A stretch of 64,000 nt of DNA, from NCBI RefSeq assembly GCF_009911795.1, contig NZ_CP047898.1, positions 930,001-994,000 on the forward strand, written 5' to 3'. The stretch comes from Pseudarthrobacter psychrotolerans (GTDB lineage: Bacteria > Actinomycetota > Actinomycetes > Actinomycetales > Micrococcaceae). The notes beneath the pieces are model-generated. The model ran no database searches. It was not told the origin of the DNA and saw nothing but the letters and a program-made list of their open reading frames with translations. This document shows, one piece after another, positions 12,710 through 47,530 of this stretch (position 1 is its first letter; every line of letters begins with the position of its first letter). Made by a program: the position numbers and the translations under genes.

Positions 12710-14116
12710 ATGCCTTTTCTCGACAAAATCCAGCGCTGGGCCGAAGAACGCCCCCATGACACCGCCGTCGTGGTGGCGGGCCGGCGGCTGCGCTGGGCGG
12801 AGCTCAAGGACGCCGCCGCGGCCGCTCTTCCAGAGACAGCAGCCGTCACAGTCCTTGCGGAGGCCAACTCCGTTGACTTCGCCGTGAGGTTCGCCGCAGC
12901 CGTTGCCGGCGGGCGGCAATGTGCCGTACTGGATCCGACCTGGCCGACGTCCCTGCACGAGGAGATCGTTCAACGGCTGGCGGAATCAGCCAAACCGGGC
13001 ACAGTTTCGGCAGCGGATGCCTTGGCGGACGGGCCGCCGGACTCGACGTTCCTGATCGGACTCACGTCCGGCACCACCACCGTGCCCAAGGCATTTACCC
13101 GGTCAAGGCAGTCCTGGCGGCAGTCCTTCGACGCGTCCATCGAGTTCTTCGGCCTCGCCCAGGACGATGTCACGCTCGCGCCCGGGCCCCTGGCCGCCAG
13201 CCTTAATCTCTACGCCCTCGCCGAGTGCCTCTACGCAGGCTCGGAATTCCAGACGCTGGAGAGGTTCGACGTCGGTGGTGTCCACGCCGCCATCACGCAC
13301 GACGGCGTGACCCGGCTGATCCTCGTGCCCACCATGCTGCGGCTGCTGAGTGAGCGCGGCCTGACCGGCTGCGTCGATGCGGCCGGCATCCGGACCATCA
13401 TCTGCGCCGGCTCAAAGCTGGACGCACGCACCCTTGAAGCAGCACGGCGCTGGGCGCCGAACGCCACGATCTACGAGTACTACGGCGCCTCCGAACTGAG
13501 CTTTGTATCCGGTGCCGGGTTGGCGGCGGGGGAGCTGCTGGACGCCGGAGGAACAGGAATCGGACACCCGTTCCCGGGCGTGGACGTCAGGATCCTCGAC
13601 GACGACGGTTCCGAACTTCAGGACGGCGAAGCCGGCAATATCTGCGTCCGCAGTGGCATGGTCAGCAACGGCTACCTGTGGGGTGACGACGGCCAGGCGC
13701 TGCGATCCTTCAACGGCTGGTTCACGGTGGGGGACCAGGGCTACCTCGTCGCCGGCGAACTGCACATCCTGGGCCGGCGCGCCGACATGATCCTGACCTC
13801 GGGAAAGAACGTCTATCCACACGAAGTGGAACTTGCCCTGGCGGCCGTGCCGGGCGTGGCTGCTGCGGTGGCCGCCGGAATACCCGATGACCTCCGCGGC
13901 CAACGGGTGGTTGCCGGCGTGATTCCGTCCCACGGCGGGGTCACGGCCATGCAGCTCAAGGCAGGACTCGAAAACATCCTGCCGCGGGACAAGCGGCCCC
14001 ACCAGTATTTCGCGCTTTCCGAACTTCCCACCACGGACCGTGGCAAGGTCAGCCGGCGCATCCTGCTGGACTGGATCGGCTCCCACGACCCCAGGGCGCG
14101 GCACCTTGACCGCTGA
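12710..14116 (+). CDS. Acyl-CoA ligase of the AMP-forming (ANL) superfamily, YhfT-like
   Basis: Activates a carboxylic acid to its CoA thioester through an acyl-adenylate. The 468-residue protein has the P-loop LTSGTTTVPK, an EYYGASELSF motif (A5), GDQGYL (A7) and LGRRADMILTSGKNVYPHEV hinge (A8), and the C-terminal catalytic lysine in DRGKVSRRIL. It is shorter than FadD enzymes and closer in size to MenE and Bacillus YhfT. The gene overlaps the following thiolase, and the pair converges on the BioNMY operon. A role linked to biotin or pimelate-type acids is inference from this context; the substrate cannot be read from the sequence. Confidence 0.85.
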   Translation: MPFLDKIQRWAEERPHDTAVVVAGRRLRWAELKDAAAAALPETAAVTVLAEANSVDFAVRFAAAVAGGRQCAVLDPTWPTSLHEEIVQRLAESAKPGTVSAADALADGPPDSTFLIGLTSGTTTVPKAFTRSRQSWRQSFDASIEFFGLAQDDVTLAPGPLAASLNLYALAECLYAGSEFQTLERFDVGGVHAAITHDGVTRLILVPTMLRLLSERGLTGCVDAAGIRTIICAGSKLDARTLEAARRWAPNATIYEYYGASELSFVSGAGLAAGELLDAGGTGIGHPFPGVDVRILDDDGSELQDGEAGNICVRSGMVSNGYLWGDDGQALRSFNGWFTVGDQGYLVAGELHILGRRADMILTSGKNVYPHEVELALAAVPGVAAAVAAGIPDDLRGQRVVAGVIPSHGGVTAMQLKAGLENILPRDKRPHQYFALSELPTTDRGKVSRRILLDWIGSHDPRARHLDR

Positions 14117-15305
14117 TCTGTTGCCCGCCGACCGGCAGCCCGTGATCATCGCGGCGCGGCGTACCGCGATCCGGCGCGCCAACGGTGCGCTGAAGGAACT
14201 GCGTGCTCACCAGCTTCTGGCGCCGGTCCTGGTCAACCTCCTGGCAGACACCCAGGTGCCGGCCGAAGCGGTCACGGATGTGGTGATCGGCAACGCCGTG
14301 GGCGGCGGCGGCAACGTGGCCCGCCTGGCCCTTCTTGAGGCAGGGCTGCCGGTCAGCGTGCCGGGACTGACCGTTGACCGCCAGTGCGGGTCAGGCCTCG
14401 ACGCGATTGTCCTGGCCGCCCGGTTGGTGGCCGCAGGCGGAACCCCCGTGTATCTCGCCGGGGGAGTGGAGAGCATCAGCACGGCTCCGCTGCGGGCGTA
14501 CCGGGACAACGACGGCGAGCCCGCCTTTTTTGCCCGTGCCCAGTTTGTGCCGCGCAGTTTCGGCGACCCGGATATGGGCGTGGCGGCCGAGAACGTTGCT
14601 GCCCGGCTCGAGGTCAGCCGGGAACGGCAGGATGCCTCGGCGCTGCGCAGCCACCAGCGGGCGCTGGCCGCCGCTAGGGCAGGCTGTTTCGCCGCCGAAA
14701 TCACTACGCTGGAAACGCCTGCCGGACCCATCAGTGCCGACGACGGCCCCCGAGCTGGCCTGACTGCCGCCGTCCTGAAGCGGTTCCCGCCCGCTTTTGT
14801 GCCAGGGGGGACTGTCACCGCCGGGAACTCATGCTTCGACGCGGACGCCGCGTCCGCCGTCGTCATCACTTCCTTGCAGCGGGCCCGGGAACTGGGAGCC
14901 AAAGACGGGCTCCTGGTGCTGGGCTCGGACACTGCCGGCGTAGACCCCGACGTGCTGGGGATCGGCGCAGCGATTGCCGGGCAGCGGCTCCTGCTGGCGA
15001 GGGGACTGTCCGCGGACAGTGTTGACCTGGTGGAGTTCAACGAAGCCTTCGCGTCCCAGACCCTGGCCTGCCTGGACCAGCTGGGCATTGATCCGGAGCG
15101 GGCCAACCTTGACGGCGGGGCGCTGGCATTGGGCCACGCCTACGGGGCGTCCGGGGCGGTACTCGTGACCCGGCTTCTCGCGCAGGCCCGGCGTGCCGGG
15201 AACCATGGATCCCTGGCGCTGGCCCTGATCAGTATTGCCGGCGGCATGGGAACGGCGGCGCTGCTGCGCTACGAGTTGCTGGCCGGCGGGCAACAGGTCC
15301 CCTAA
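14106..15305 (+). CDS. Thiolase-family acyltransferase lacking the second active-site cysteine
   Basis: Thiolase fold, about 399 residues. The nucleophile Cys is present in VDRQCGSGLDAI, the NEAF motif is present (VEFNEAFASQ), and the catalytic His lies in GHAYGASGA. The C-terminal motif, normally CxGGG-like, reads ISIAGGMG, so the acid/base cysteine is replaced by Ser. Together with Ala-Tyr in place of Pro-x after the His, this suggests altered chemistry. The start is uncertain: TTG 14106 overlaps the ligase stop and GTG 14142 is the alternative. It probably acts on the product of the ligase. Confidence 0.85.
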   Translation: MTADLLPADRQPVIIAARRTAIRRANGALKELRAHQLLAPVLVNLLADTQVPAEAVTDVVIGNAVGGGGNVARLALLEAGLPVSVPGLTVDRQCGSGLDAIVLAARLVAAGGTPVYLAGGVESISTAPLRAYRDNDGEPAFFARAQFVPRSFGDPDMGVAAENVAARLEVSRERQDASALRSHQRALAAARAGCFAAEITTLETPAGPISADDGPRAGLTAAVLKRFPPAFVPGGTVTAGNSCFDADAASAVVITSLQRARELGAKDGLLVLGSDTAGVDPDVLGIGAAIAGQRLLLARGLSADSVDLVEFNEAFASQTLACLDQLGIDPERANLDGGALALGHAYGASGAVLVTRLLAQARRAGNHGSLALALISIAGGMGTAALLRYELLAGGQQVP

Positions 15306-15331
15306 GCCGCACGGGAAGGCCCAACGGCCGT

Positions 15332-15955
15332 TCAGTCTTCTGCATCGCCCAGCCCGCGGGCAGCCAGCGCTTCGCCGGTCTGGCGGGCGAAGGCCACGGT
15401 GGTGATGAAGACGGGCAGGACGAGGGCACGCGGGTTGCGCTCAAGCCCGCGGGCCCGCGCGGAATCCCTGACGTCTGCAAAGGCGCCGGCGATGTAGGGG
15501 ATGCTGCGGAGCATGATGGCGATGGTCAGCGCAAAACGCTCGGGGTCCGCGCCGAAGCGGCGGAACGGCGTGGCCAGCGATACAACGCCGTCCAGGATCC
15601 GCTGCATGGGCGTGGTAACCGTCAGCAGGGACGCCGCCACCACGCAGACCATGATGTTAAGGACAATCCGGGCAGCTGTGGGTCCGCCCAGCTGCCACCA
15701 CTGGAACAGGCCGATGACCACCAGCACCAGGGCAACTGGACGGACAGCACTGAGCAGCCGGCGGGCTCCGGCGCCGCTCAGGAGAAACAGGACGCCGAGC
15801 GCGGCCAGCACCGCGGCGGAGACCAGCCAGTCGACCACCATGAAAGACACCAGGCCGCAGCCCACCACCAGCAGGAACTTCACGGCCAGCGGCGTCCGGT
15901 GGATGATCGAATTCCCCGGGACGTAGTTGGCCAGCAGGAAGCCGTGCCCTCTCAT
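15332..15955 (-). CDS. bioN: Biotin ECF transporter, transmembrane coupling protein (EcfT/BioN)
   Basis: Energy-coupling transmembrane subunit for biotin uptake, 207 residues. Hydrophobic segments fill the first half. The coupling helices carry the two Ala-Arg-Gly signatures (ARARGLERN and AARGLGD) that contact the ATPase. Its ATG overlaps the bioM stop by four bases. Third gene of bioY-bioM-bioN on the minus strand; it ends 27 nt from the convergent thiolase. Confidence 0.9.
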   Translation of the reverse strand: MRGHGFLLANYVPGNSIIHRTPLAVKFLLVVGCGLVSFMVVDWLVSAAVLAALGVLFLLSGAGARRLLSAVRPVALVLVVIGLFQWWQLGGPTAARIVLNIMVCVVAASLLTVTTPMQRILDGVVSLATPFRRFGADPERFALTIAIMLRSIPYIAGAFADVRDSARARGLERNPRALVLPVFITTVAFARQTGEALAARGLGDAED

Positions 15956-16668
15956 GGCGCAGCCAGGCCGTTGGTGACCAGCGCCCGGTACGCGTCGACG
16001 GCCGCGGCAGGGCCGCCGTCGAACATTATGCGCCCCGCCTCCACCACCAGCACGCGGTCCATCTCCAGGGCGAGGTCGAGGTCGTGTGTGGACATCACGA
16101 TCTGCTGGTCGAGACCGGACAGGGTGCGGCGCAGGAGTTCCCGGTTCCGGAGGTCCAGGAGCGTGGACGGCTCATCCAGCACCAGGACAGCGGGGTTCAC
16201 GGCCAGTACCGCAGCGAGGGCCATCAACTGGCGTTCACCGCCGGACAGTTCGTAGATGCTCTGGTCCGCGAGCGGCAGCAGGCCGAGGCGCTCCAGGGCC
16301 GCTTCCGCCAGCCTGTGCCGCTCCGCACCGTTGCGGACCGGGCGGCGCAGCGAAAGCTCCACGTCCTCGCGGCCTGTCGGCATCACCAGCTGCGACAAGG
16401 GATCCGTGAAGACGAACCCCACCTGCCGCCGGACTGCCCGCACCGCCCGGACAGTATCCGCGCCGTCCACGGACACGCTGCCGGAACTTGGCTGGACCAG
16501 GCCGTTAATCAGCCGCAGCAGCGTGGACTTGCCGGACCCGTTGGCCCCGATCACGCCAACGCGCTGTTCGGTCAGCTCAAGCGTGACGTCCTGGAGCAGG
16601 GTCTTCGGTTCCGGGCTGGTGTCAACGGCAACGGCCACAATGGCCTGCCGGAAAGAAATGGTTGCCAT
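15952..16668 (-). CDS. bioM: Biotin ECF transporter, ATP-binding protein (BioM)
   Basis: ATPase of the biotin energy-coupling factor transporter, 238 residues. Walker A is GANGSGKSTL, the Q-loop region reads VGFVFTDPLSQL, the signature is LSGGERQLMALAAV, Walker B VLVLDEPSTLLD, and the switch His is in STHDLDL. Only one ATPase gene is present, so it should act as a homodimer, as known for BioM. It starts 7 nt after the bioY stop. Confidence 0.92.
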   Translation of the reverse strand: MATISFRQAIVAVAVDTSPEPKTLLQDVTLELTEQRVGVIGANGSGKSTLLRLINGLVQPSSGSVSVDGADTVRAVRAVRRQVGFVFTDPLSQLVMPTGREDVELSLRRPVRNGAERHRLAEAALERLGLLPLADQSIYELSGGERQLMALAAVLAVNPAVLVLDEPSTLLDLRNRELLRRTLSGLDQQIVMSTHDLDLALEMDRVLVVEAGRIMFDGGPAAAVDAYRALVTNGLAAP

Positions 16669-16675
16669 GGCGGGG

Positions 16676-17305
16676 CTAGTTGTTGATCCGCTTCACCCGG
16701 CGGACCAGGACGTCGGGAAATGCCCGGTGCAGTGCCACGGCGATGACCGCGGCGAGGATGTTCTTAATCACGTCACCGGGGTAGAAGACCAGGTCTGCAA
16801 GGAAGGCTTCCCCCAGTGTGGCTTTGGTGTTCAGGGCAATCCCGGCAACTCCGAGCAGGTGCACGACGGCGATGCTGGTGACCATCGACGAGGCGAAGAA
16901 CCAAAGCTCCCGGGCACGTGTTGTCCGCCGGATCACCACGGTGGCCAGCCAGCCTACAACAGCTGCTGCGATGGGGAAAGCAATGATGTAACCGGCCGAC
17001 GGTCCGGCCAGGATGCCCAGGCCGCTGCGGCCCTGGCTGAAGATGGGGAGGCCGGCCAGGCCCAGGAGGGTGTACAGTCCGACGGCGGCGAAACCCCGGC
17101 CGGGGCCCAGCATCAGTCCGGTGAGCATCACCGCAAGGGTCTGGAAAGTGATGGGGATGCCGAACACGTTTGCCGCGATGCCAGGCACCAGGGCGGAGCC
17201 GGCAACCAGCGCGGCGAAGACGGCGATCAGGCCCAGGTCGGTGGCGTTCCACCGGCTCCGGAGGCGGGAAGCGGTGCCGGAGACGGCGCTGTCAGTCTGG
17301 CTCAT
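16676..17305 (-). CDS. bioY: Biotin-binding S-component BioY
   Basis: Substrate-capture membrane protein of the biotin transporter, 209 residues with about six hydrophobic segments. The sequence shows the BioY hallmarks: PITFQTLAVMLTGLMLGPGRG, the GLPIFSQGRSGLGILAGPSAGY segment and a late DLVFYPGDVIKNILAA. First gene of the bioYMN operon. No biotin biosynthesis gene lies in the window, so the cell may depend on uptake or encode synthesis elsewhere. Confidence 0.95.
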   Translation of the reverse strand: MSQTDSAVSGTASRLRSRWNATDLGLIAVFAALVAGSALVPGIAANVFGIPITFQTLAVMLTGLMLGPGRGFAAVGLYTLLGLAGLPIFSQGRSGLGILAGPSAGYIIAFPIAAAVVGWLATVVIRRTTRARELWFFASSMVTSIAVVHLLGVAGIALNTKATLGEAFLADLVFYPGDVIKNILAAVIAVALHRAFPDVLVRRVKRINN

Positions 17306-17432
17306 GGGGTGTTCCTGTCGTGGTTGTACAAGCGAAGCATGGGGATGATCATGACGTTACCGGCCGCCGTCGGGCGCCATTTTGTAGGGGACCTACTAAG
17401 CGGGATGCCCGGGATTGACGTCACGGTACAAA

Positions 17433-19325: not shown

Positions 19326-20720
19326 TCAGATGGTGGCAGTACGTGGTGGCCCGCAGGCCGCTTCGAAGAGGCGTGACCAGCTGGTTTCCCAGGGCCAGTG
19401 AGCGGGCAGGTGCAGGACGATTTTCCGTGCCGAGGTCGCGATCCTGGCGGGGACGGTGATGAGTTTTCGGCGGATGGTTCCGCTGCGTGCTTTGCCCAGG
19501 TCAGGGCCGGCAAGAGTGCCGATGGCGCGCGAGAGGTTGAATGCGATGCTCGCCAGGACCAGCCAGGCTGCGTTGGCGGTGAACTTTCCCGAGGGCAGGT
19601 GCGCCAGGGCACTGTCTTTGAGGTCCGCGTTAATCTGCTCGATGATGGCGTGCTGGCGGTGGGTTTTGTCTGCGGTGACGGTGTCCAGGGCGCTGGTGGT
19701 GAAGAAGGCGTGGAAGCGGTGGGTGTCGAACAGGGTCTGTTGCCCTGCGCCTGCTTTGGCGTTCAGTTCCGGGATCCGCCGCACGACCAGGCGCCCGTGG
19801 ATGCGTTCGGCTTTCTTCCGGCCCACGAAGGCGGTGAAGGCGGTTTCGGCGACTTCCGCCGAGGAAATCCAGGCCCCGGTGGTTTCATCGCGGACCGCGT
19901 CGGTGTACTCGATGGTGGTCCAGGCGTGCTCGTTGATGGTGGCGATGGCGCGTTTGACGGCCGGGTCCATCCGGGCGGTAATGGACACTTTCGCGCCTGC
20001 GCGGTGGGCAGCGGCGACGACCGGGTGGCCGTAGAAGGCACTGTCGGCACGCAGCAGCACCAGCCCGGTGGCATCCTTGCCGCGCAGCCGTTTGACGGTG
20101 GCAAGGATGTCAGCGATGAACTTCCCCGCCCCGCGCGGGGAGCCGGAGCTTCCCTTGCGCAGCCTCGCGCCGATGATGACCGGCGCCGCGGTCGCGGTCG
20201 AGAGGATCCCGATCAGCGCGTTCAATCCCCGGACCCCGGAGTAACCGTAGCCGGAACCCTGTTTCCGGTAGCCGTGGACTTCCTTGATGGTGTCGTCGAT
20301 ATCGACCAGAGCGTAATCATCGATACCGGAGGTGATCGGGGCCACGGCGGCCACGTTCACCAGCCACCGTGCGGCGAGGGCGTCGAGCTGGCGGACATGG
20401 CCGAAGGTGAACGAGCGCAGGAACGATCCCAAAGTCGACGGGGCATATGCACCGGCGAAAAGTTTCTTCATCCCGCCGTGACGCAACAAGGCCATGTCAT
20501 CGATGGAATCGGCCCCAGCGACCATGCCCGCGACCAGCGCGGTGACCTTCAACCCCGCATTCGCGCCGAAGTATCCGGGCAGCGTCAGCCACTGATCAGC
20601 GAGTTCGCCAAGGCAGGTTTTCACCGCCAGCGCCATCGCCGGGACCAGACCTGCGGCCGACACGAGGTTGGAATCATCGAACGCGGCTGACACGCGCGTG
20701 GATCTATGGAAAAGTTGCAC
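19326..20720 (-). CDS. IS1380-family DDE transposase
   Basis: 464-residue transposase. The N-terminus VQLFHRSTRVSAAFDDSNLV is characteristic of IS1380/IS1676-type enzymes. Catalytic acidic residues fit the DDE pattern: DIDDT (about 145), RADSAFYG (about 225) and a Glu in IIEQINADLKD (about 375). The start is a GTG at 20720. No frameshift or truncation is seen, in contrast to several host genes nearby. Confidence 0.95.
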   Translation of the reverse strand: MQLFHRSTRVSAAFDDSNLVSAAGLVPAMALAVKTCLGELADQWLTLPGYFGANAGLKVTALVAGMVAGADSIDDMALLRHGGMKKLFAGAYAPSTLGSFLRSFTFGHVRQLDALAARWLVNVAAVAPITSGIDDYALVDIDDTIKEVHGYRKQGSGYGYSGVRGLNALIGILSTATAAPVIIGARLRKGSSGSPRGAGKFIADILATVKRLRGKDATGLVLLRADSAFYGHPVVAAAHRAGAKVSITARMDPAVKRAIATINEHAWTTIEYTDAVRDETTGAWISSAEVAETAFTAFVGRKKAERIHGRLVVRRIPELNAKAGAGQQTLFDTHRFHAFFTTSALDTVTADKTHRQHAIIEQINADLKDSALAHLPSGKFTANAAWLVLASIAFNLSRAIGTLAGPDLGKARSGTIRRKLITVPARIATSARKIVLHLPAHWPWETSWSRLFEAACGPPRTATI

Positions 20721-46162: not shown

Positions 46163-47530
46163 ATGTCCGTCAATGGACAGTCCGGCACCGGACCCCACGA
46201 ATTCGCCAGCCCCACGACGTCCGGCGCGGCGCGCCCAGTCCGCCGGGCCGTAATTGTGGGTGGTAACCGGATCCCGTTTGCCCGGTCCGGCGGGGCCTAC
46301 ACGAAGTCTTCCAACCAGGACATGCTCACCGCCGCGCTGGACGGACTTATTGCCAGGTTTGGCCTCCAGGATGAGCGGATCGGCGAGGTTGCGGCCGGGG
46401 CCGTGCTCAAGCACTCCCGGGATTTCAACCTCACCCGCGAGGCAGTCCTGGGTTCAGCGTTGTCGGCGGAGACCCCCGCCTACGATCTGCAGCAAGCATG
46501 CGCCACCGGCCTCGAAACGGTTCTAGGCCTGGCCAACAAGATCAAACTGGGCCAGATCGATTCCGGCATCGCCGGAGGTGTGGACTCGGCGTCGGATGCG
46601 CCCATTGCTGTCAGTGAAGGCCTCCGCGAGGTGCTCCTGGACCTCAACCGCGCCAAGACCTTTTCCCAGCGCCTGCAGGTGCTCAGCCGGCTGCGGCCCA
46701 AGGACCTGGCCCCCGATGCTCCGAGCACGGGGGAGCCACGCACCGGCCTGTCCATGGGTGAACACCAGGCGCTGACCACCGCGCAGTGGAACATTTCGCG
46801 CGAGGCGCAGGATGAGCTGGCTTTCAACAGCCACCGCAACCTTTCCGCCGCGTATGACGCGGGTTTCTTTGATGACCTCCTGACGCCCTACCGCGGCCTC
46901 GCCAAAGACTCCAATCTGAGGGCGGACACCACCCTGGAGAAGTTGTCTACCCTCAAGCCCGTCTTCGGAAAGAACCTGGGTGCCGAGGCCACCATGACGG
47001 CGGGAAACTCCACGCCGCTGACCGACGGGGCCTCCACGGTCCTGCTCGCATCCGAAGACTGGGCCGATGCCCATGACTTGCCGAAGCTCGCCGCCGTAGT
47101 TGATGGAGAAGCTGCTGCTGTGGACTTCGTCCACGGCAAGGACGGCCTGCTCATGGCCCCCGCGTTCGCGGTCCCGAGGCTGCTGGCCCGCAACGGACTG
47201 ACGCTGGACGACTTCGACTTCTTTGAGATCCATGAAGCGTTTGCCGGGACCGTCCTGAGTACACTGGCCGCCTGGGAAGATGAGGAGTTCGGCCGCACCC
47301 GGCTGGGACTTGCGAGTGCCTTCGGCAGCATCGACCGCACCAAGCTGAACGTCAACGGCTCCTCCCTGGCCGCGGGCCACCCGTTCGCAGCCACCGGCGG
47401 ACGTATCGTGGCCTCGCTGGCCAAGATGCTGGAGGCCAAAGGCACCGTCGACGGAAGGCCTGCGCGCGGACTTATTTCCATCTGCGCCGCCGGCGGCCAG
47501 GGCGTCGTCGCAATTCTCGAAGCACTCTAG
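46163..47530 (+). CDS. Acetyl-CoA C-acetyltransferase (FadA2/FadI-like thiolase)
   Basis: Thiolase for beta-oxidation, 455 residues. Cys nucleophile in QQACATGLET, EAFAG motif in FEIHEAFAGTV, catalytic His in AAGHPFAATGGR and the second Cys in ISICAAGGQG are all present. GAGGAG precedes ATG 46163. First gene of an operon with a FabG4-like reductase and a MaoC hydratase, matching M. tuberculosis Rv0243-Rv0241c in content (from memory). Confidence 0.95.
   Translation: MSVNGQSGTGPHEFASPTTSGAARPVRRAVIVGGNRIPFARSGGAYTKSSNQDMLTAALDGLIARFGLQDERIGEVAAGAVLKHSRDFNLTREAVLGSALSAETPAYDLQQACATGLETVLGLANKIKLGQIDSGIAGGVDSASDAPIAVSEGLREVLLDLNRAKTFSQRLQVLSRLRPKDLAPDAPSTGEPRTGLSMGEHQALTTAQWNISREAQDELAFNSHRNLSAAYDAGFFDDLLTPYRGLAKDSNLRADTTLEKLSTLKPVFGKNLGAEATMTAGNSTPLTDGASTVLLASEDWADAHDLPKLAAVVDGEAAAVDFVHGKDGLLMAPAFAVPRLLARNGLTLDDFDFFEIHEAFAGTVLSTLAAWEDEEFGRTRLGLASAFGSIDRTKLNVNGSSLAAGHPFAATGGRIVASLAKMLEAKGTVDGRPARGLISICAAGGQGVVAILEAL

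Follow-up and report, generated by a model that had tools for sequence, protein, structure and literature searches.

The closest described counterparts of the genes considered here are the yhfU(bioY)-yhfT-yhfS set of the Bacillota and the yhfS-yhfT genes of the S. aureus BirA regulon, which carry the same three functions. In the Bacillota, BirA represses both bioY and yhfS-yhfT (PMC11089781, PMC6391492, PMC7235819; the papers designated by PMC numbers are cited from excerpts of their text), and the link between yhfST and bioY is thereby already in print, no function being given for it in the excerpted text. In S. meliloti, a BioY gene named bioB is directly followed on its 3' side by SMc00965 and SMc00966, which code for an AMP-binding protein and a thiolase, and the three genes are lowered together by NolR (PMC12445080). 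The locus analysed in this work lies in a stretch of 64,000 nucleotides from Pseudarthrobacter psychrotolerans (contig NZ_CP047898.1, positions 930,001 to 994,000; hereafter the window), and associates the genes of an AMP-forming acid:CoA ligase and of a thiolase-fold protein with those of a BioYMN biotin importer. An earlier annotation of the window, the original prediction, had cited the yhfU-yhfT-yhfS set of Bacillus subtilis as a reported biotin-regulated operon, and the BirA-repressed counterpart found in print agrees with it. The window pair represents a variant of the YhfT/YhfS type, and its association with BioY is genuine and ancient. The association is wide and was only partly known before; the altered catalytic site of the thiolase-like protein and the partner enzymes described below are newly added to it.

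The five genes are intact at the places where the original prediction had put them, as judged from open frames and Pfam. The ligase gene (12710..14116, forward strand; 468 aa; PF00501 and PF13193) and the thiolase gene (14106..15305, forward strand, start uncertain; PF00108 and PF02803) converge on bioN (15332..15955), bioM (15952..16668) and bioY (16676..17305), which are adjacent on the reverse strand, the thiolase gene facing bioN; in the Bacillota, by contrast, the pair lies in the bioY operon. The importer genes code for the components of an energy-coupling factor (ECF) transporter: the CbiQ-type T component (bioN, PF02361), the ECF-type ATPase (bioM, ABC_tran) and the biotin S component (bioY, PF02632, also recovered by the BioY search), their matches to the NCBIfam ECF models remaining below cut-off. 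The candidate starts of the thiolase gene are GTG 14040, TTG 14106, TTG 14121 and GTG 14142. The ligase stop codon (14114-14116) falls within the thiolase open frame, so that the two genes overlap or nearly do so and the pair is translationally close.

The genome carrying the window (5.17 Mb) belongs to the Arthrobacter/Pseudarthrobacter group, within the family Micrococcaceae, and a ligase with 95% identity to that of the window comes from a named Pseudarthrobacter. Among 197 genomes of this family (ligase at E <= 1e-60, bioB at 1e-40 or better), BioY is present in 195, bioB in 104 and the ligase in 47, and in 34 of these 47 carriers, by hand count, no more than about 7 kb separates the ligase from BioY. 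It is located away from BioY in seven carriers (G009, G037, G084, G113, G120, G121 and G135), and contig ends or an unlisted BioY position leave six others unclassifiable (G019, G029, G047, G053, G091 and G114). In G084 (C5, L163) and G121 (C3, L164), bioM and bioN are still beside the pair, the sole BioY match being on another contig. Named genomes were searched with an alignment of 17 ligases, and the best 80 of 218 confirmed loci were kept, with relatives in Arthrobacter, Pseudarthrobacter and Paenarthrobacter: the thiolase gene directly follows the ligase gene in all 80, and bioN, bioM and bioY are all visible at 72. The remaining loci are L088, a short contig with bioN only, and seven with none of the three genes, among them L101 and L149, whose contigs measure 4,089 and 3,338 bases. 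The arrangement beside BioY is not due to chance, and the survey of bioY neighbours that the original prediction had called for finds the co-occurrence it supposed. A zinc-type dehydrogenase gene precedes bioM in G084; it is different from the oxidoreductase of the plasmid loci described below and is given little weight.

The gene set also recurs beside BioY across phyla. In the phylum search, 57 of 396 genomes have a ligase match at 1e-50 or better; beyond the family, just four genomes are set off from the rest (G338, G392, G459 and G487, at 1e-74 or better), the others, at 4e-60 or weaker, looking generic. A search of the class around G392 gave six matches in 249 genomes and added G632, G676 and G751. 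The order bioY-ligase-thiolase-bioM-bioN is found on one strand in G392 and G632, and again in Nonomuraea, while G676 shows bioY-ligase-thiolase-bioM and G487, a member of their family, ligase-thiolase-bioM-bioN, each up to a contig end. Among plasmid records, the ligase is matched at 1e-30 or better in 127, of which 112 come from Rhizobium, and ten loci (L230-L239) picked from the ligase and thiolase plasmid searches were read. The order bioM-bioN-bioY-ligase-thiolase occurs in Azospirillum lipoferum, A. thermophilum, S. meliloti Ak57, Shinella, Microvirga and Streptantibioticus; in Sinorhizobium K101, bioM and bioY accompany the ligase and the thiolase, with bioN unmatched; and three Rhizobium loci hold an oxidoreductase, a thioesterase, the ligase and the thiolase, bioMNY being absent from the stretch. 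The Ak57 locus is taken as the counterpart of bioB-SMc00965-SMc00966. No coding sequence is listed there over the ligase match, which covers part of the ligase, and this copy may therefore be unlisted or damaged. The three functions are thus found together, as had been supposed, in distant groups, with same-strand clusters in another class of actinobacteria and in Nonomuraea, Streptantibioticus, Azospirillum, Sinorhizobium and Microvirga. For the Bacillota, the neighbourhood is taken from print, and the Bacillus-type sequences come from a bait search in which the genome context is not seen. A literature search combining bioY, acyl-CoA ligase, thiolase and biotin returned nothing, and earlier reports of the link may exist.

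The ligase had been described as YhfT-sized, and the resemblance is borne out by its best NCBIfam model, NF005797/PRK07638, which we take to be the YhfT model (235.4 bits, the next model giving 184.2); the score is the highest of all models and lies below the model cut-off of 518. The residues of an ANL acid:CoA ligase are all present, namely the P-loop (Ser120-Gly121-Thr122 in an SGTT sequence), the A8 Arg (Arg356) and the A10 Lys (Lys446). With these motifs intact, the activation of an acid by the ligase is likely. The AlphaFold model (predicted local distance difference test, pLDDT, 89.5) has MenE, MatB, oxalate-CoA ligase and amide synthetases among its nearest structures, at about 25% identity; the predicted structures of both enzymes bear on the fold only. 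In the ligase tree, a branch with support of 100/100 separates 30 ligases, actinobacterial and alphaproteobacterial, from 23 others. Among these 30, the ligases of G338 and G751 are not BioY-linked, the sequence read around them holding no BioY. The 28 linked ligases all have Trp136 (13115-13117 in the window), against none of the 22 readable others, Gly159 (2 of 23 others) and Tyr or Phe257 (1 of 23 others), and Arg356 and Lys446 are kept in all 28.

The thiolase-like protein, whose residues are counted from 14112, passes the general thiolase (EC 2.3.1.9 / 2.3.1.16) model TIGR01930 (350.8 bits for a cut-off of 240.55). Its best model of the equivalog kind is NF005212/PRK06690, presumably the YhfS model (338.6 bits, next 260.6), and the YhfS-type cut-off of 498 bits is not reached. 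Each of the two enzymes falls in one clade among the sampled rows: in the case of the thiolase, 40 BioY-linked or Bacillus-type proteins, 13 of them Bacillus-type, group together with support of 100/100 and leave 17 ordinary thiolases outside, in a tree that is unrooted and has a small outgroup. The 40 rows include four in which the pair is away from BioY, two from Rhizobium and two, G037 and G120, from the window's family. The 17 ordinary thiolases are ten of the window genome, one from a Niallia plasmid, an ordinary control with the usual Cys and beta-oxidation gene neighbours, and six picked by hand, PcaF among them; this picking omitted Staphylococcus, a second Deinococcus and other matches, including a S. 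aureus plasmid match at 48% identity that is possibly a clade member.

The roles of the thiolase nucleophile, His, Asn and CxG base Cys are described in PMC3406046. The nucleophile, Cys92 (Cys89 in the Zoogloea enzyme), is present in 40 of 40 clade members, as is the His of the GHP motif (His342); the Asn of the NEAF motif (Asn310) is present in the window protein and in 32 of the 40, and replaced by Thr, Met or Val in the other eight. The CxG base Cys, Cys378 in the Zoogloea-type biosynthetic thiolase, is replaced by Ser374 (15231-15233) in the window protein, which has the fold, the active-site Cys, the Asn and the His in common with that enzyme. The base Cys is lost in every readable sampled member of the clade, the position being Ser in 13 rows (the window's family), Gly in 21 (eight alphaproteobacterial or Streptantibioticus, Ak57 among them, and the 13 Bacillus-type) and Ala in six, whereas it is Cys in all 16 readable rows of the 17 ordinary thiolases. 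Among database proteins, Ser occupies this position in 119 of the 120 listed matches of the window thiolase, the remaining one being unread, and the 120 listed matches of the Bacillus-type bait all have Gly there; these matches would be YhfS proteins, and those named are mostly from Bacillota, with one from Microbacteriaceae.

The AlphaFold model of the thiolase-like protein has a pLDDT of 90.9, and its nearest structures are solved thiolases, at a template modelling score of about 0.87. Its top sequence match in the Protein Data Bank (PDB) is 4n45, which has a Ser aligned with Ser374 where 4n44 has the Cys; this Clostridium thiolase has been crystallised as a C378S mutant (PMC4595758). The Ser374Cys replacement made in silico adds 5.4 bits with TIGR01930 and leaves the NF005212 score at 338.8 (Ser 338.9, Ala 338.8), and the latter model therefore has no preference for Cys at this position. 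Mycobacterial TLP1 likewise has a thiolase fold without the CxG Cys; the nucleophile and the GHP His are missing from it as well (PMC3406046), and both are kept in the window clade. A second thiolase gene of the window (46253-47521) has HEAF in place of NEAF and a normal CxG Cys.

Furthermore, a medium-chain oxidoreductase and a 4HBT/YbgC-like thioesterase are encoded beside the set in seven of the ten plasmid loci, including Ak57, which differs in this from the window. The S. meliloti oxidoreductase has an ADH_N domain, and its best PDB matches are 3gms, a putative quinone reductase (7e-34), followed by the human mitochondrial 2-enoyl thioester reductase (1e-22). The only cut-off reached by the partner enzymes is that of TIGR00051, by one thioesterase (69.7 for 68.7). 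The annotations available for six of the plasmid neighbourhoods list neither an acyl-CoA dehydrogenase nor an enoyl-CoA hydratase; those of two Rhizobium loci place an SDR oxidoreductase, which could be a ketoreductase, a few kb past the thiolase. The two partners would be the enoyl reductase and the thioesterase of one pathway.

The model that we tentatively propose, as a possible reading of these sequences rather than a probable one, is that the ligase-thiolase pair carries out a CoA-dependent side-chain remodelling that serves biotin acquisition. The ligase would convert an acid arriving with or instead of biotin into its CoA thioester; because of the tie to BioY, this acid would most likely be a biotin vitamer whose side chain is altered, bisnorbiotin for example. 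The thiolase-like partner, in which the nucleophile is kept together with, in most members, the oxyanion residues, would load the acyl group on Cys92. Without the CxG base Cys, missing throughout the sampled clade, ordinary thiolytic cleavage is doubtful, and the partner would more likely add a C2 unit in a ketosynthase-like, decarboxylative manner, or transfer the acyl group; in the thiolase superfamily, neither decarboxylative condensation nor acyl transfer needs such a base. In those lineages where the set is fuller, the oxidoreductase, which resembles enoyl reductases, would reduce an enoyl thioester and the 4HBT thioesterase would free the acid, the ketoreductase and dehydratase steps being presumably provided by other enzymes. 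The outcome would be a repaired valeryl side chain, for cells that import biotin. The substrate, the direction, the C2 addition and the roles of the two extra enzymes are what we infer. With an enoyl-reductase relative and a thioesterase beside the pair in many loci, and no acyl-CoA dehydrogenase or enoyl-CoA hydratase among the annotations of the six plasmid neighbourhoods, the most economical explanation is that an imported acid is elongated or remodelled. The model is also supported by the insertion of the ligase and thiolase genes into the bioY-bioM interval, on one strand, in G392, G632, G676 and Nonomuraea, and by the fact that carriers need not be biotin producers, 24 of the 47 being devoid of bioB. 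BioZ offers a precedent, since it condenses glutaryl-CoA with malonyl-acyl carrier protein (PMC7645780). If the C2-addition reading is right, both enzymes would take up a CoA-bound primer on a catalytic Cys as part of biotin metabolism; BioZ, however, is a FabH homologue of de novo synthesis, whereas the window protein is a thiolase homologue tied to uptake. The original proposal of a link between uptake and the activation or cleavage of an acid is therefore kept in part: the pair is tied to BioY, but ordinary thiolytic cleavage does not fit a clade in which the CxG Cys is missing in 40 of 40 members. In its most complete version, this model would be that of a widespread CoA-dependent pathway, encoded next to the biotin importer in three phyla, which rebuilds the side chain of imported shortened vitamers by means of a thiolase-fold enzyme turned into a decarboxylating ketosynthase through the loss of its base Cys; taken as a whole, this version is unlikely.

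Several observations weigh against side-chain remodelling. Both partner enzymes are absent beside the pair in the two Azospirillum loci, in Microvirga (bar one weak distant match), in L227-L229 and in Nonomuraea, nor were they seen next to the pair in the window's family; the nearest NCBIfam model of the S. meliloti oxidoreductase and of two relatives is that of the PIG3 quinone oxidoreductase, below cut-off. In G459 (C291, L217), the order is bioY-ligase-bioM-bioN and the thiolase gene is absent, so the ligase may act alone. The replacement of Asn310 in eight of 40 clade members is not predicted by a ketosynthase-like mechanism, the import of shortened vitamers by BioY is assumed, and the palindrome that precedes bioY, described below, is matched at 11 or more of its 14 positions in none of 98 ligase start regions, no operator common to the pair and the importer having been found.

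Could the ligase act on biotin itself? It would then make biotinyl-CoA in order to hold the imported vitamin, and the thiolase-like protein would be an acyltransferase that passes on or releases the biotinyl group. We know of no gene assigned to the biotin-CoA ligase activity (EC 6.2.1.11). The ligase gene stands within the bioY cluster, even without the thiolase gene in G459, the conservation of Cys92 with loss of the carbon-carbon base suits acyl transfer, and the residues specific to the ligase clade (Trp136, Tyr or Phe257) suggest a changed pocket; but there is no known acceptor, and the oxidoreductase and thioesterase are left unexplained, so that we consider this trapping rather doubtful. 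A lipid metabolism that spares biotin, in which acetyl-CoA carboxylase would fall when biotin is scarce and the pair would scavenge or elongate other acids for membrane lipids, agrees with S. aureus reporter assays where BirA and biotin repress yhfS-yhfT (PMC6391492), these genes being therefore on when biotin is low, and with the lipid-type families of the partner enzymes. It is nevertheless fairly unlikely: the window genome already has 13 further ligase-like matches and, besides the thiolase of the pair, ten matches over the thiolase cut-off, it is BioY that is conserved as the neighbour, and the presence of MenE, MatB and oxalate-CoA ligase among the nearest ligase structures speaks, weakly at such identity, in the same sense. 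The beta-oxidation of biotin to bisnorbiotin is classical, and a ligase and a thiolase would be the first and last steps of such a breakdown of the valeryl side chain. Biotin catabolism is however quite unlikely in view of the base Cys lost across the sampled clade, of the six plasmid neighbourhoods devoid of annotated dehydrogenase and hydratase, and of the repression of the S. aureus genes by biotin, which has the wrong sign for breakdown (PMC6391492).

The original prediction had also suggested a pimelate-type precursor, which the pair would make or activate, for example from glutarate and a C2 unit. BioZ does such chemistry from glutaryl-CoA (PMC7645780), and the window genome has a bioB over cut-off (C1:679348) beside bioA-like and bioF-like aminotransferase frames. 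But bioB is present in 23 of the 47 ligase carriers and in 81 of the 150 non-carriers, being missing in 24 and 69 respectively (Fisher p = 0.62); carriage of the ligase is therefore unrelated to bioB and the pair independent of de novo synthesis, and on this cross-table we reject pimelate supply as the general function. Furthermore, the genes are tied to the importer, and R. etli CFN42, whose full growth is reported to require biotin or added synthesis genes (PMC8914248), retains the ligase, the thiolase, the thioesterase and the oxidoreductase. Altogether, pimelate supply is very improbable. In the bioB region of the window genome (C1:674000-686000, L221), the aminotransferase frames, of class III and class I/II and bioA-/bioF-like by eye, lie between two cytochrome P450 frames, which may be a pimelate source of the BioI kind. 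A second bioB-like gene (C1:1025391-1026253, L182) is split in two, the first piece being interrupted by a stop, and its region also holds a chalcone-synthase-type gene.

The presence of the same set in actinobacteria and alphaproteobacteria raises a testable question, that of how biotin-importing cells get usable biotin. The ligase is a candidate gene for the activation of biotin or of a biotin vitamer, and the altered site cautions against the annotation of this thiolase clade as acetyl-CoA acetyltransferase.

As for regulation, a palindrome, TTAGTAGG-N3-CCTACAAA as read on the bioY strand, lies at 17381..17399, 76 nt before bioY. A pattern drawn from part of the bioY regions, TTNGTAGG-N3-CCTACNAA, is matched at 11 or more of its 14 positions in 80 of 115 bioY upstream regions, some genomes being counted twice. 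Most bioY genes have the palindrome 71 to 76 nt upstream. In the form TTTGTAGG-N3-CCTACAAA, it is found in many genus genomes about 73 nt before bioY and about 91 nt before a biotin-carboxylase/biotin carboxyl carrier protein (BCCP) gene beside maf (C1:4870464-4870482 in the window genome; L186, L220), whose product has biotin carboxylase and biotin attachment domains. A scan of 41 genomes of the genus gave 40 sites with one mismatch at most, in 35 genomes, against 20 for a reversed control pattern; 29 newly fetched loci comprise 17 sites before bioY, 11 before the biotin-carboxylase/BCCP gene by maf, one before neither and none before the ligase. The palindrome, which looks like the operator of a biotin regulator, differs from the predicted BioQ site, TGAAC-N3-GTTCA (PMC3398298). 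From the counts before bioY and before the ligase, the importer but not the pair carries the presumed operator, unlike in the BirA regulon of the Bacillota, and the biotin regulation of the pair expected from the original prediction would not extend to this group. BioR boxes (TTATNNATAA) were not found in the 13 loci scanned (L227-L239). At gathering scores, Rfam reports only a tRNA in the window, which therefore holds no riboswitch of a known family. Beyond bioY, an ABC-F-like gene is followed by a DDE transposase gene (PF13701) at 19326-20720.

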